Positions 19,429 through 26,020 of a DNA stretch of 64,000 bases are shown piece by piece; the stretch's first letter is position 1, and every line of letters starts with the position of its first letter. The notes below the pieces were generated by a model. That model ran no database searches. It saw only the letters and a list, made by a program, of their open reading frames with translations, and was not told the DNA's origin. The translations under genes were made by a program, and so were the position numbers. This stretch comes from an uncultured Bacteroidales bacterium (GTDB lineage Bacteria > Bacteroidota > Bacteroidia > Bacteroidales > WCHB1-69). Where the stretch lies: positions 62,001 through 126,000 of the forward strand of contig CAMVOL010000002.1 in the NCBI GenBank assembly GCA_947169105.1. The letters are read 5' to 3'.

Positions 19429-22400
19429 CTAATCCTTTACACAACGTACAGAGTAACCAAAGCAAGGCAAATTGTGATTGCAAATTAAAGTGGCATTGGA
19501 GTGGTCCAACAGTCGATACAACACATCATTTCTGGTATTTTCCGTACTACTCCATAAATATGCGTGCGATGTGTGTGAACTATATACCGCACTTGTACCG
19601 TGAAAAAAACCTGCTGGCATTGCCCCAAAGCCAGTGGCATTATTTGCACTCTGGTTTTGGCTAATACTACATTCTCCATAGTTCGTGGTAGTATACCAAT
19701 TGGAATTGTAAGACAGTGCTTTACCGATATTGGTATTGTCGTTACCGCAAATGTATTGGCTTTGGCTACTCACATAGTCAGCAAGTTGTGTCCACTCAGC
19801 ATCACTCGGTACGTGCCACCCGTCAGGGCAGATGCCCTGCACCTCACTCGGGTTATTACTGCTTGAACTCGCGTTTCTCATTACGGCCGACCAGTTATAG
19901 AGCAATCCATAAGTTGATTTGTTTCCTGAGTTGTTGTTTGGATAGTACCAATATGGTATACTAAAGGATGCAGTCGTATTGCCATTAGTTATAGATGTTC
20001 CATCAGCATATTTTGTCGTTTTCAGATTTTCTCTCATCCAGCATTGTGAACCGATTTGAACAGTATTGTATGTGTTACCGTCAATATCGGTAAGAGTGGC
20101 TACACTGGGACAGGATTGACCATCATTTGAGTTGTACTGAGTTAGAGCAACTTCCTCTCCGTATCCAGTACCTTCCCTGTTGGTCGCGTATGCACGCACA
20201 TAATAAGTAGTATAGGATGACAATCCATTAATATTGCTGGTGAAACTGCCCGCACCATTTCCATCGTTAGTGTGACTGTCGGCAATTGTTGGATTGTGCG
20301 AAGTACTCCAACATACTCCACGAGCAGTAACACTGGCGCTTCCTTCCGAAGTCACCTCTCCACCGCATACAGCTGTATTGGAGGTGATGTCACTCACAGA
20401 AGCGGTGCGGACCGTTGGCAGATTGTCCCGCAAACACCTTACGGATATGGCAAATCGACTATCCCTGCTTACGTGGGTTACACTTGTTTGAGAATAAACC
20501 CAATGGGGAGCTATAAATAATGCTATCTGCGAATTGTTAGTTGTAGTATAAGTAGATGTCCAAAAATTTGCAGCGCCGAAGAAATCTGTAAATCCGACAG
20601 AACTGGAATTACTCATAATTCCTGCTGGCACTGCGCTGAAACCAGAAGAGTTGTGTTCACTGGTGGTATTTCCCGGTACATTAGCATTGCCCGATGCAGT
20701 CCAGCCGCAATTTAAAGAGAGTTTGACGGCTATTTCACCTCTAGCAACACCGATAAGGTCAGCATCACTTTGACTCATTCCAACAGCCATCTCCATTTGT
20801 TTCCATTCCTCATTGCTCGGGATGTGCCAACCATCGGGACAAATACCTTGAACACCACTTGGAATAAGAGTGGAGGATTGTGCATCGCGCATTATCGCTT
20901 TGCCGTTGTACAGTAATCCATAGATAGCCTTTTTGTTCGAAGAGCCGTTAGGGTAGTACCAGGATGCTGTTGTGGTTGATGGTTGAGCATTAGACGAAAG
21001 ATTACTTCCGTCAGCATACCTTGTGGTGCGCAGGTTCTCTCTCATCCAGCATTGGGTGCCTATTAAGACTGTAGCATAAACATTTCCGTCAATATCAGTC
21101 AATGACGGAGGACAATCAGAAGTGGTTATACTTTGTTGTTGTCCGTATGTTGTTCCATTTTCATTTGTGGCGTATGCTCTCACGTAGTATGTGGTACTGG
21201 GAACAATGTTTCCAAAATGTGATATATAATCTCCTAAACCACTTCCATCTGTTGTGCGATTATCATCTATCGTCGGATTCTCGTGCGTGCTCCAACAAAC
21301 TCCTTTCTCGAGAATGGTTGAAGAACCAGAAGAAATCACATTGCCACCACTGCTCAAACCGTTGTCATAATACGAAACAGCGGCTGTATTAATAATAATT
21401 GAATCATTTGCTTGTTCCAATTCCTCAATCCTATCCAATAATGCTTGAATATCACTGGGATTCAAATTGTAGTTGCTCAAAGAATCCCGTGTCAAGTACC
21501 CAGCATCATTGTTGAAGGTGGAAACCTCTGTGGGAATGGTCGGGATGTCAGGTCTATCTGTCAAATCATTGTAACTGCCACTGAATCCCGCAGGCAGTTT
21601 GGCGAAACTGCCGCCTGTGAGATATATGGTGTCATTGCTGATACTCAACACCTGCTGTTCCGTGTATTCGGTGAGGTAGTGGGCATCGTTCGTGAAAGCG
21701 GACACGTTGGTAGGAATAGCCGGAACATCTGCACTGGTAATGTAGTTGGCATCATTGGTGAAGGCTGAAACATTCGTCGGTACGGTCGGGATGGTGGGTT
21801 TGTTCATAATCTGCGCGGCACCGCTTGTTGCGTTCCAGTCGGCATTCACCTGTGCGGGAACCTGCGCCAGCGTAATGTAGTTTGCATCATTCGTGAAAGA
21901 GGACACGTTGGTAGGAATGGCAGGAACATCGGCACTGGTAATGTAGTTGGCATCATTGGTAAAAGCGGACACATTGGTCGGTACCGTGGGAATCGTCGGT
22001 TTGTCGGTCAGGTCGTTGTAACTGCCGCTGAACAGGTCAGGTTTGTTGGACAGACTGTTATAGTTGCCGTCGAAACCAGCAGGCAGCACGGCATAACCTC
22101 CATTGCTCAAATAGATAGTGTCGTTGCTAATGCTCAACACCTGGTAAGCAGGAATATCCTCGGAGGTAATGTAGTTGGCGTCGTTTGCAAAGGCAGACAC
22201 GTTAGTGGGGATTGCGGGAACATCGGCCGCTGTGATGTAGTTGGCATCATTTTCAAAAGCAGAGACATTTGCGGGGACAGTAGGAATTGTCGGTTTGTCG
22301 GTCAAGTCGTTGTAACTGCCGCTGAAAAGTTCGGGAAGGTTCGTCAAACTGTTGTAGTTGCCGTCGAAACCAGCGGGCAGTTTTACGAAGCTGCCGCCCG

Positions 22401-23631
22401 TAAGGAACAAGGTGTCGTTGCTGATGGTCAAAACCTGTTGTTCCGTGAAGGAGGTAAGGTAGCCTGCATCATTCGTAAAAGCGGACACATTGGCAGGAAT
22501 AGCCGGAACATCCGCTGAGGTAATGTAGTTTGCATCATTTTCAAATGCGGAGACGTTGGTCGGGATTGCAGGCACATCCGCTGCGGTAATGTAGTTCGCA
22601 TCGTTATTGAAAGCAGATACATTGGTCGGGATATTGGCTGCTTCTTGAACGGTAGCCGTCGTGAGGTAGCCGGCATCGTTTACAAAAGCACTCACATTCG
22701 TCGGTACAGTCGGGATGGCGGGGATGGAATCCATTGTAATGTAACCGGCATCGTTGTTGAAAGCAGAAACATTGGTGGGAATATCGTCCTCAGTAACATA
22801 GTTGTTGGTAACTAAATCATTTTGCGTGATATAGTTCTCGGTGGTTAATGTGCTTTGGGTTACATAGCCGGCATCGTTCACGAAAGCGGAAACGTTTGTT
22901 GGTACAGTCGGAATCTCCGGAATAGAATCCATTGTAATGTAGCCAGCGTCATTGGTGAACGCACTCACGTTGGTGGGAATGTCGGCCTCAGTTACATAGT
23001 TATTGGTAATTAAGTCGTTCTGGGTGATGTAGTTTTCGGTAGTCAATGTGCTTTGGGTTACATAGCCAGCATCGTTCACGAAAGCGGAAACGTTGGTCGG
23101 CACAGTCGGAATATCTGGAATGGAGTCCATTGTGATATATCCAGCATCATTATTGAAAGCACTTACATTTTCAGGGATTTGCGGAATATCCGGCGTGTTG
23201 GTGAGATCATTGTAATTGCCGCTGAAACTGTTGGCTGCACTGCCTGCATACAGTGCATACGGTACGCTCAACAACTGTTGTACATTTTCCAAAACATAGT
23301 AAGTTCCACCCGTTGGGTCGATTTCAGTCTTGAGGAAGAACGGACCGTTTGCCCAGTCGATGGATGCAAAGTCGCCGTTTACCACTGTGCCACCGCCAAT
23401 CTCCAGCGTCATCAATCCGTTGACATTGGTGACAGCAGTGTGTGTTTCTTGATAAACCATCGTGCCATTCGCACCTCCTTGCAAGATGGAGATTCGCACG
23501 CCAACAGTCCCGCGAACGAGCGTGTTGCTCTCGTTGCGAACCACCGCCTGATAGGTGAATCTTTGCGGGGCTTGGGCAAACATTGTCAGTCCTATAAGAA
23601 CCAGAACAAAAAAGGATAAAAGTTTTCTCAT
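19429..23631 (-). CDS. 1400-aa surface protein: signal peptide, ~16 NVSAF-NDA-YIT repeats, two FISUMP domains
   Basis: YQAVVRNESNTLVRG.. N-domain; 16 NVSAFxNDAxYIT-type units; two blocks of TDIDGNxYxTVxIGxQCWMRENL..ICPDGWH(I/V)PS. Confidence 0.85.
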   Translation of the reverse strand: MRKLLSFFVLVLIGLTMFAQAPQRFTYQAVVRNESNTLVRGTVGVRISILQGGANGTMVYQETHTAVTNVNGLMTLEIGGGTVVNGDFASIDWANGPFFLKTEIDPTGGTYYVLENVQQLLSVPYALYAGSAANSFSGNYNDLTNTPDIPQIPENVSAFNNDAGYITMDSIPDIPTVPTNVSAFVNDAGYVTQSTLTTENYITQNDLITNNYVTEADIPTNVSAFTNDAGYITMDSIPEIPTVPTNVSAFVNDAGYVTQSTLTTENYITQNDLVTNNYVTEDDIPTNVSAFNNDAGYITMDSIPAIPTVPTNVSAFVNDAGYLTTATVQEAANIPTNVSAFNNDANYITAADVPAIPTNVSAFENDANYITSADVPAIPANVSAFTNDAGYLTSFTEQQVLTISNDTLFLTGGSFVKLPAGFDGNYNSLTNLPELFSGSYNDLTDKPTIPTVPANVSAFENDANYITAADVPAIPTNVSAFANDANYITSEDIPAYQVLSISNDTIYLSNGGYAVLPAGFDGNYNSLSNKPDLFSGSYNDLTDKPTIPTVPTNVSAFTNDANYITSADVPAIPTNVSSFTNDANYITLAQVPAQVNADWNATSGAAQIMNKPTIPTVPTNVSAFTNDANYITSADVPAIPTNVSAFTNDAHYLTEYTEQQVLSISNDTIYLTGGSFAKLPAGFSGSYNDLTDRPDIPTIPTEVSTFNNDAGYLTRDSLSNYNLNPSDIQALLDRIEELEQANDSIIINTAAVSYYDNGLSSGGNVISSGSSTILEKGVCWSTHENPTIDDNRTTDGSGLGDYISHFGNIVPSTTYYVRAYATNENGTTYGQQQSITTSDCPPSLTDIDGNVYATVLIGTQCWMRENLRTTRYADGSNLSSNAQPSTTTASWYYPNGSSNKKAIYGLLYNGKAIMRDAQSSTLIPSGVQGICPDGWHIPSNEEWKQMEMAVGMSQSDADLIGVARGEIAVKLSLNCGWTASGNANVPGNTTSEHNSSGFSAVPAGIMSNSSSVGFTDFFGAANFWTSTYTTTNNSQIALFIAPHWVYSQTSVTHVSRDSRFAISVRCLRDNLPTVRTASVSDITSNTAVCGGEVTSEGSASVTARGVCWSTSHNPTIADSHTNDGNGAGSFTSNINGLSSYTTYYVRAYATNREGTGYGEEVALTQYNSNDGQSCPSVATLTDIDGNTYNTVQIGSQCWMRENLKTTKYADGTSITNGNTTASFSIPYWYYPNNNSGNKSTYGLLYNWSAVMRNASSSSNNPSEVQGICPDGWHVPSDAEWTQLADYVSSQSQYICGNDNTNIGKALSYNSNWYTTTNYGECSISQNQSANNATGFGAMPAGFFHGTSAVYSSHTSHAYLWSSTENTRNDVLYRLLDHSNATLICNHNLPCFGYSVRCVKD

Positions 23632-23711: not shown

Positions 23712-24194
23712 TCATCGTGCCATCTTTACCACTTTGAAGGATTTCAGTATCTGCGTGCCATTCAGCACGTTCACAAAGTAAGTCCCTGTGGCAAGGTCAG
23801 ACATAGGAATTTCGGTTTTATTCCCTTCTATCTTCTTTGAATACAGATATTTTCCATTCGTGTCAAACACTTTCACTTCGCCTTCAAATTCCTCATTACT
23901 AATTGCTAATTGCAAATTGGAGGTCGTCGGGTTCGGATAGACCATCGCGTTCAGCGTGATGCTGGGGTAGTTGTCAATCCCAATGGTTTGGATTTCGTAG
24001 GGTTGCTGCACACCTTCGGATATGCTGGTGCTGCCTTCGCCATACGACTGCATGGCGATTTGTCCGATGGTGTATGTCACCGTTCCTCCATTGCCCGTGG
24101 CAGTTCCACCCGTCGGCACAATGTCGGATTGGGCATTTATGGTATGCATTGTTAGAACCCATAATGCGAAAATAAATACAACTGATCTTTTCAT
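23712..24194 (-). CDS. 160-aa T9SS type A sorting domain protein
   Basis: Signal peptide; SISEGVQQPYEI; VYPNPTTSNLQL...VKVFDTNGKYLYSKKIEGN..TGTYFVNVLNG..KSFKVVKM. Confidence 0.9.
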   Translation of the reverse strand: MKRSVVFIFALWVLTMHTINAQSDIVPTGGTATGNGGTVTYTIGQIAMQSYGEGSTSISEGVQQPYEIQTIGIDNYPSITLNAMVYPNPTTSNLQLAISNEEFEGEVKVFDTNGKYLYSKKIEGNKTEIPMSDLATGTYFVNVLNGTQILKSFKVVKMAR

Positions 24195-24230: not shown

Positions 24231-24238
24231 CAAAATTA
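24231..24238 (-). promoter_or_regulatory. Putative -7 box TAATTTTG
   Basis: TAnnTTTG match upstream of the 24194 gene; no clear -33 at standard spacing. Confidence 0.35.
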
Positions 24239-24311: not shown

Positions 24312-24451
24312 AAAAAAAATAACCGCGGACTTCATGTTCTGAGTCGAGGCTCTGGAAAACCTATTACCACAAACAAGAAAGCCCACGGTTACAACCCGCG
24401 AGCGTTTCTCCTTCCTTGTGTGGTAAATTGAATTTTCCAGATTCCGACTCA
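24312..24451 (-). ncRNA. Candidate structured ncRNA: nested hairpin, pseudoknot or terminator pairing, U8 tail
   Basis: TGAGTCG/CGACTCA, CTGGAAAA/TTTTCCAG and TTACCACA/TGTGGTAA nested stems; apical UAACCGUGGGCUU pairs with downstream AAGUCCGCGGUUA (13 bp, 2 GU valid only on the minus strand), then U8. Confidence 0.55.
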
Positions 24452-24547
24452 CCAAGAAAAGCGAAAACGCCTATTTATGTGTTTTTGTTATGCTATTTAT
24501 TGAGTTCTTTTTGGTCCTATTTTATTTATTGATAATTGTTTGCATTA

Positions 24548-24582
24548 AGAAAAAACCGCCCTGCCGTTGAAAAGGCAAAGCG
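24548..24582 (-). terminator. Intrinsic terminator downstream of rodA
   Basis: CCGC..TGCC/GGCA..GCGG hairpin followed on the minus strand by TTTTTTCTTAAT. Confidence 0.75.
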
Positions 24583-24622
24583 GTGCAATAATAATGATTT
24601 TTTTGATTGGAATGACTAAACG

Positions 24623-24769: not shown

Positions 24770-26020
24770 TTAGTTGTCATCCAACTTGATAAAGATGAAC
24801 AGCAGTGTGGTGAAGCCCCACAGCGAGGAGCCGCCATAGCTGATGAAGGGCAAGGGTATGCCAATAATTGGCACTAACCCGATGGTCATGCCGATATTGA
24901 CGGCCAAGTGGAAGAAGATGATGGAGGCCACACAGTAGCCGTAAATCCGCGAGAAGGGATTTCGCTGCTTCTCCGACAAAATGATGAGTCGTATGATCAG
25001 TGCCAGGTACAAGGCAATCAGTGCCGTGCAGCCAACAAAGCCCCACTCTTCGCCGATGCCGCAGAAGATGAAATCAGTGCTCTGCTCCGGCACAAAATTC
25101 AGCTTGGTCTGTGTGCCGTGCAGATAGCCTTTCCCGAAAAAGCCGCCGGAACCGATGGCAATCTTCGACTGGTTCAGGTTGAAGTCGGCCCCTTTGGGAT
25201 CGACGCTCTTCCCTAAAATGGTGTCGATACGCTGCCTCTGGTGCGATTGTAGCACCTCGTTATAGGCGAAATTGACGGCAAAAACGAAAAGGACAAATCC
25301 TGCATAGATGGCAATGTTCCGTATGATTTTCATCTTGTCCCCTTTCGTGAAATACCACGCAACTATCAGCATAATAGTAAGTAACGCCACTGCATATAGT
25401 TCGTTGGTGACAATAGTGAGGACGAAAAGGATAACAGCAAAAATACCCGCAAGGAGAATCCATCCGTTGAACCCTTCGCGGAAAAAAAGGATGATGAAGG
25501 AGGCGAAAACGAGGGCGGATCCCGTGTCTTTTTGCAACAATGCGATGACGGCTGGAATCCCAATCAAAATGAAAGCAGTGATCCACTGCGTTTTGCGTTC
25601 CTTTTCAGTCTTGGCGCTACTAAAGAATTTGGCAATGGCCAATGCGGTCGCAAATTTCGCAAACTCAATGGGTTGGATGCTGAAACTGCCGATTTTGATC
25701 CACGCCTTGGCACCGTTGATGTCGGTGCCGATGAATACAACGGACAGTATCAGTAGCATAAAGGCCGCATAGACAAAGTAGGCGTATGTCTGTATCAGTT
25801 TGGTGTCGATGGCGAGGACGACAAAGGCGAGGACGGCGGCGGCGATAATCCAGATCAACTGGCGGCCGTACGGTTGGGCGAGGTCGAAAAGGTGGAACGG
25901 CTGGCTGGAGTCGTACGCCGACGAATAGATGGTGAGCCATCCGATGACTACTAACGCAATGTAATAGACAATTAGTTGTGTATCAACACCCTTGAATTTT
26001 GTTGGCTGGCTGTTACTCAT
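24770..26020 (-). CDS. rodA: Rod shape-determining protein RodA (SEDS family)
   Basis: PIEFAKFATALAIAKF, LVPIIGIPLPFISYGGSSLW. Confidence 0.93.
   Translation of the reverse strand: MSNSQPTKFKGVDTQLIVYYIALVVIGWLTIYSSAYDSSQPFHLFDLAQPYGRQLIWIIAAAVLAFVVLAIDTKLIQTYAYFVYAAFMLLILSVVFIGTDINGAKAWIKIGSFSIQPIEFAKFATALAIAKFFSSAKTEKERKTQWITAFILIGIPAVIALLQKDTGSALVFASFIILFFREGFNGWILLAGIFAVILFVLTIVTNELYAVALLTIMLIVAWYFTKGDKMKIIRNIAIYAGFVLFVFAVNFAYNEVLQSHQRQRIDTILGKSVDPKGADFNLNQSKIAIGSGGFFGKGYLHGTQTKLNFVPEQSTDFIFCGIGEEWGFVGCTALIALYLALIIRLIILSEKQRNPFSRIYGYCVASIIFFHLAVNIGMTIGLVPIIGIPLPFISYGGSSLWGFTTLLFIFIKLDDN

Follow-up and report, generated by a model that had tools for sequence, protein, structure and literature searches.

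Bacteroidota dominate gut and rumen communities, and to our knowledge few cis-regulatory RNAs are known in this phylum. Riboswitches for c-di-GMP (GEMM) stand in many copies per genome ahead of unrelated surface and export genes. The structured RNAs of Bacteroidota include 6S-Flavo, Flavo-1, Bacteroidales-1, Bacteroides-1 and Bacteroid-trp (Rfam; PMC2864571), and FopS is a set of paralogous Bacteroides sRNAs with a single-stranded 5' stretch and a terminator hairpin, which base-pair to susC mRNAs (PMC11697453). The RNA considered here lies between rodA and a T9SS cargo gene in the window, the whole 64,000-nucleotide stretch of DNA that was analyzed. With a probability of about 0.62, we take it to be a bistable leader RNA (an attenuator) of an undescribed Bacteroidota family that would control mostly genes for exported proteins by transcription attenuation. 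Attenuator leaders are a known kind of element; neither this family nor its complete two-fold architecture was found in Rfam 15 or in the literature searched, with the reservation that many subscription papers lay outside the search and that absence is not proof.

The RNA can be drawn in two ways. Fold A is a long rod that comprises a 5' hairpin (P0), the nested stems P1, P2 and P3, and an apical hairpin (P4). Fold B consists of two hairpins, one in which the 5' tail pairs with arm 1 and another in which arm 2 pairs with arm 3 and is followed by U6-8, the architecture of an intrinsic terminator. Pair retention was counted on an alignment of 103 copies (A4). Since A4 had been fitted to fold A, a second test that is independent of column pairing was added, in which the best helix that two segments of one copy can form is set against the best helix for segments taken from different copies; the z-scores of this pairing test are inflated by relatedness, which the control segment pairs carry equally. 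The parts of the window copy and its neighbors, from upstream to downstream, are the following.

24770 to 26020, minus strand: rodA (PF01098, E 2.9e-80)
24555 to 24584, minus strand: terminator of rodA, located upstream of the RNA
24312 to 24472, minus strand: whole structured RNA, 160 letters, beginning with the 5' hairpin and ending with the U-run
24459 to 24472, minus strand: P0, the 5' hairpin AGGCG-UUUU-CGCUU of fold A (93% of P0 pairs kept on A4)
24450 to 24461, minus strand: 5' linker CUUUUCUUGGUG, whose partner in fold B is the CAAGGAAGGAG stretch before arm 1 (z 9.9)
24445 to 24451, minus strand: P1 5' strand TGAGTCG, fold A (P1 z 38.5; 97.5% of pairs kept)
24430 to 24445, minus strand: hpA, a small hairpin of fold B, GGAAU[CUGGAAA]AUUC (z 9.2; double changes in 5/5 pairs)
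24433 to 24440, minus strand: P2 5' strand CTGGAAAA in fold A, the loop of hpA in fold B (P2 z 29)
24419 to 24426, minus strand: P3 5' strand TTACCACA, fold A (P3 z 42)
24408 to 24422, minus strand: pre-arm1 stretch, the CACACAAGGAAGGAG region (z 12.5 and 9.9)
24396 to 24407, minus strand: arm 1, AAACGCUCGCGG (P4 z 9.4; P6 z 6.9)
24379 to 24391, minus strand: arm 2, UAACCGUGGGCUU (P4 z 9.4; arm 2 with arm 3 z 9.2)
24364 to 24371, minus strand: P3 3' strand TGTGGTAA (pairing test for P3 and fold A pair counts)
24347 to 24362, minus strand: hpA', the fold B hairpin of the 3' half, AGGU[UUUCCAGA]GCCU, with the P2 3' strand as its loop (z 6.3)
24352 to 24359, minus strand: P2 3' strand TTTTCCAG (pairing test for P2 and fold A pair counts)
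24340 to 24346, minus strand: P1 3' strand CGACTCA (pairing test for P1 and fold A pair counts)
24320 to 24332, minus strand: arm 3, AAGUCCGCGGUUA, the 3' strand of the terminator hairpin (92% of arm 2 with arm 3 pairs kept; double changes in 7/8 pairs)
24312 to 24319, minus strand: U-run (U8), read in the window sequence
24231 to 24238, minus strand: TAATTTTG, a Bacteroidota -7 promoter motif downstream of the RNA and 44 nt ahead of the ATG of the next gene
23712 to 24194, minus strand: downstream gene for a 160-aa protein with a signal peptide-like start and a T9SS C-terminal sorting domain (PF18962, E 1.6e-13)

Part of this anatomy had been anticipated from the window alone. The original prediction of three nested minus-strand stems (TGAGTCG/CGACTCA, CTGGAAAA/TTTTCCAG and TTACCACA/TGTGGTAA) was found to be correct, the 13-nt pairing of the apical UAACCGUGGGCUU with AAGUCCGCGGUUA, with its two G-U pairs and the U8 that follows, was borne out, and the separate rodA terminator is present at 24584-24555. 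The element itself also stood, with a different 5' boundary: the match of R2, the broader of two covariance models, runs from 24472 to 24313 (134 bits, E 3.5e-21), which places the real start at 24472, ~21 nt further 5' than had been proposed, and the U-run ends at 24312. Within the additional ~21 nt are the 5' hairpin and the partner strand of the apical arm 1. The narrower model, R1, matches the window copy at E 4.6e-26 in the search of its own genome. As a separate observation, P4 is followed by UUUCUUGUUU (window 24403-24366, minus strand), a possible pause site or weak terminator within the RNA.

As judged from base-pair covariation in the 103 copies, the RNA has two complete folds that exclude each other. 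On A4, 96.2% of the cells of fold A are paired, and 29/32 pairs show changes on both sides. For fold B the count covered P1 and P3 along with hpA and the pairings of the 5' tail with arm 1 and of arm 2 with arm 3; 93.9% of these pairs are kept, with double changes in 24/26, as compared with only 36-41% paired in controls in which the partners were slid. The pairing test gave z-scores of 38.5, 29 and 42 for P1, P2 and P3, 9.4 for P4, 9.2 for arm 2 with arm 3 and for hpA, 6.9 for P6 (5' tail with arm 1) and 6.3 for hpA'; the accessory segments scored 9.9 (5' linker with pre-arm1), 12.5 (pre-arm1 with post-arm2) and 8.1 (post-arm2 with the 3' linker), and control segments without an expected pairing gave no signal in the same test (z -2.3 to 1.1). 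Covariation of the 5' tail with arm 1 can be read in individual copies, as in GACGUU:AACGUC and AGCAUU:GAUGCU.

It follows from these pairings that several segments have two partners. Arm 1 pairs with arm 2 in fold A (P4) or with the 5' tail in fold B (P6), arm 2 with arm 1 or with arm 3 of the terminator hairpin, and the pre-arm1 stretch with the post-arm2 stretch (fold A) or with the 5' linker (fold B); the 5' strand of P0 doubles as the 5' strand of P6 in fold B (self-complementarity of P6, z 6.9). The conserved segments are those with two partners to satisfy, and the sequences of P1-P3 drift freely from copy to copy. Thus two exclusive, conserved pairings share a strand, and one of them is a hairpin with a U-run, the arrangement expected of an attenuator; a T-run of at least 5 occupies the U-run position in 137/154 family copies. 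The compensatory changes in homologs that had been proposed as a check are found in both pairings across the 103 copies, and the suggestion of a switch between hairpin and terminator is to that extent supported by sequence comparison. The loops of the two half-hairpins in fold B are the complementary strands of P2, which makes a kissing contact between them possible, and conversion between the rod and the terminator fold may begin from such an intramolecular kissing complex.

The minus strand of the window copy folds at -58.7 kcal/mol (z -5.35; none of 200 shuffles equalled it), as against only -45.0 kcal/mol for the plus strand. Across the family alignments there are more G-U than A-C cells (201:25 in fold A and 130:9 in arm 2 with arm 3), and since the opposite strand could not form the G-U pairs, the RNA is assigned to the minus strand of the window, confirming at the family level an orientation that had been fixed from two G-U pairs. 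These ratios also bear on the idea of a DNA-level palindrome of the REP or MITE kind that merely spreads, which might account for an element that is multicopy and quasi-palindromic, with some copies near contig ends. The G-U/A-C asymmetry, a U-run and gene orientation that are one-sided, the covariation of the stems, the absence of conserved ends and the match to one viral contig only are out of keeping with a strand-symmetric palindrome, and we regard this explanation as very improbable.

For the window copy the energies of the two folds are close (rod -62.9 kcal/mol, forced terminator fold -61.9 kcal/mol), and over the 103 copies the rod is favored by ~13 kcal/mol on average over the separately folded halves. 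Both folds are better than shuffles, the two-hairpin fold having a z below -1 in 103/103 copies. Since the rod is favored in energy and yet the two-hairpin fold beats shuffles in every copy, the choice between them is probably made during transcription; with a rod ~13 kcal/mol more stable in most copies, the terminator fold requires either a kinetic route or some stabilization. This energy gap and the length of the terminator loop (about 45 nt) weigh against the attenuator reading.

The family to which this RNA belongs is large. A DNA search found six copies in the genome of the window and the element in 10/13 genomes of the genus. R1 identified 12 copies below E 1e-4 in this genome and matches in 59/100 relatives, across many families of the order and with up to 21 per genome; it also found matches in further orders and, at a weaker level, in further classes of the phylum. 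With R2, at least 14 copies were found in the same genome (14 below E 1e-7) and matches in 64/396 genomes sampled across the phylum; the remaining 332, in which R2 had no match, act as a practical negative control. Carriers found by pattern scan include Labilibaculum manganireducens, Aequorivita echinoideorum, Niabella aurantiaca and many MAGs from rumen, gut and termite gut. A phage element was ruled out as a candidate, the viral matches being limited to one contig. At three loci (L081, L084 and L070) two or three copies lie 1.2-2.2 kb apart, those of L081 and L084 preceding paralogous genes for secreted proteins. In the 21-copy genome (G074), many copies (e.g. L065, L069, L072, L080 and L108) are found 200-600 bases from a contig end, which would suit a position beside repeats that break the assembly.

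At Rfam thresholds, no family of Rfam 15 matches the window RNA or the RNA at 40 other loci, and the best weak matches to the window copy (mir-2814 and trpB) fall far below the gathering score. This result, together with the covariation in 103 copies, supports the suggestion of a new class of noncoding RNA. The original prediction had also named 6S RNA of the 6S-Flavo type, and a long imperfect hairpin of roughly the right size would suit it. No match to RF01685 was obtained in the window, at the 40 other loci or in the whole genome, even at E up to 10 for the RNA itself; control genomes likewise gave none, so that absence of 6S RNA from the genome is not implied. The presence of at least 14 copies, the terminator architecture and the position ahead of genes are unlike a single free-standing 6S gene, and we give this identification almost no credence.

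The surroundings of the copies are those of a leader. Of 141 non-redundant copies, 96 have the Bacteroidota promoter motif TAnnTTTG within 120 nt upstream, compared with 22 when the reverse strand is scanned and 13.2 for shuffled sequence. In 124 copies the gene that follows has the orientation of the RNA, at a median distance of 70 nt from RNA to start; 13 copies face a gene of opposite orientation and 10 have no gene close by, and these two groups fit a leader less well. Among the 82 copies no more than 80 nt from a start codon, the promoter motif lies in between in 3 and upstream in 54. Exported-looking proteins, called by a simple heuristic (signal peptide or lipobox) and among complete downstream proteins only, make up 59/84 (70%) of the downstream products and 88/306 (29%) of other ORFs at the same loci (p 9e-12). 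The 117 downstream proteins contain 67 Pfam families, with T9SS sorting domains in 15-18 of them, and include FISUMP, SusC/RagA and PKD proteins, lipoproteins, ECF sigma factors, LytTR proteins and some DNA methylases. A role as a leader of defense genes was rejected on this census, since the downstream genes include some methylases but are mostly genes for exported proteins.

Two further conserved features accompany some copies. Downstream of the U-run at L004, L005, L010, L017, L019 and L022 there is a second conserved stretch, ATGTTTGTGAC...ACCGATTG...TTACAAACAT, which possibly forms a stem of its own, fills the 70 nt between U-run and start codon and is found in many copies ahead of FISUMP/T9SS genes. 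A near-perfect palindrome, ACAGACAACGCATGCGTTGTCT, lies 15-40 nt before the RNA at L002, L015, L019, L024, L031 and L047, with part of it present twice in L024, and resembles an operator or a small repeat.

At the family level the RNA thus has a promoter ahead of it and a gene of the same orientation behind it; the window copy is ambiguous in this respect. Its promoter motif, TAATTTTG, is between RNA and gene, and no TAnnTTTG was seen upstream of the RNA, so that its tie to the gene is weaker; perhaps two promoters serve the gene, or this copy is a free-standing one. Further downstream, window 19429-23631 (minus strand) encodes a 1400-aa protein in which two FISUMP domains are accompanied by many near-identical 'NVSAFxNDAxYIT' repeats. 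The separate promoter of the window copy's gene is among the observations that would suit a stand-alone family of trans-acting sRNAs, RNAs of 160-200 nt that run from their own promoter to the U-run and act elsewhere, their neighbor genes being incidental. Most copies have their own U-run, with a promoter motif upstream, some are convergent with a gene or far from one, and multicopy sRNA families are known in Bacteroides (FopS, PMC11697453). Against this explanation are the 124:13 strand bias, the short gaps before start codons, in which promoters are almost absent, the strong enrichment for genes of exported proteins and the free variation of P1-P3, which leaves no room there for a shared seed. 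The earlier suggestion of a standalone RNA is accordingly possible for the window copy and a misfit for most of the family, for which we consider it unlikely.

Under the attenuator reading, RNA polymerase would start 30-100 nt upstream and produce the leader. The 5' half would fold on itself, the 5' tail pairing with arm 1 and the linker with pre-arm1, with the small hairpin in addition; with arm 1 so held, arm 2, arm 3 and the U-run would form the terminator and transcription would end (OFF). Alternatively, arm 2 would take arm 1 and the halves would zip into the rod (P4, P3, P2, P1), leaving arm 3 unpaired, and transcription would proceed into the gene, usually one for an exported protein (ON). 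A putative signal would select between the two. Because the shared arms show triple covariation, this two-state model can be tested directly by mutation.

A tentative, and in our judgment rather doubtful, extension is that of a riboswitch-like class, widespread in Bacteroidota, in which the whole 160-nt body is the switch and a single signal (a metabolite, a second messenger or an RNA-binding protein) picks the fold at more than 10 loci per genome, thereby setting a surface or secretome regulon. No metabolite or ligand theme was found among the 67 Pfam families in the 117 downstream proteins, a result that would favor a protein-binding leader, in which an RNA-binding protein or NusG-like factor, not a metabolite, decides between termination and read-through by reading the rod or the 5' hairpin. 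The long stable rod, the many unrelated target genes and the wide spread would also fit; a conserved unpaired motif is absent beyond short loops and no candidate protein was identified, and we hold this version to be improbable. In many species the genome carries ~10 or more copies, ahead of T9SS cargo, FISUMP, lipoprotein and SusC-like transporter genes; a shared RNA switch, if the attenuator reading is true, would represent an unrecognized layer of coordination of the cell surface.

Among the described RNAs of the phylum, 6S-Flavo, Flavo-1, Bacteroidales-1, Bacteroides-1 and Bacteroid-trp do not match the window RNA or the 40 other loci at Rfam thresholds. The DUF805b motif (RF02914) shares a leader with this RNA in one copy, where it is found after the RNA and ahead of the start codon of a lipoprotein-like gene (L002, 1673-1707; 42.7 bits), but it is a separate 35-nt element, and two of the three in that genome do not adjoin this RNA. 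FopS resembles our family as a multicopy Bacteroidales RNA with promoter and terminator (PMC11697453), and differs from it in having a seed and one hairpin rather than a long covarying rod ahead of genes. The c-di-GMP (GEMM) riboswitches are alike in copy number and in their unrelated surface and export targets, but have no match to this RNA in sequence or structure (Rfam). Transcription-attenuation riboswitches and leader attenuators, as a general kind, likewise have a promoter upstream, a gene downstream and two folds that exclude each other, of which one contains an intrinsic terminator. This RNA differs from them in that it has no known aptamer, in that no leader peptide was seen and in that it occurs up to 21 or more times per genome before unrelated genes; and whereas attenuation riboswitches combine an aptamer with a small expression platform, the two folds of this RNA are globally different and involve the whole molecule.
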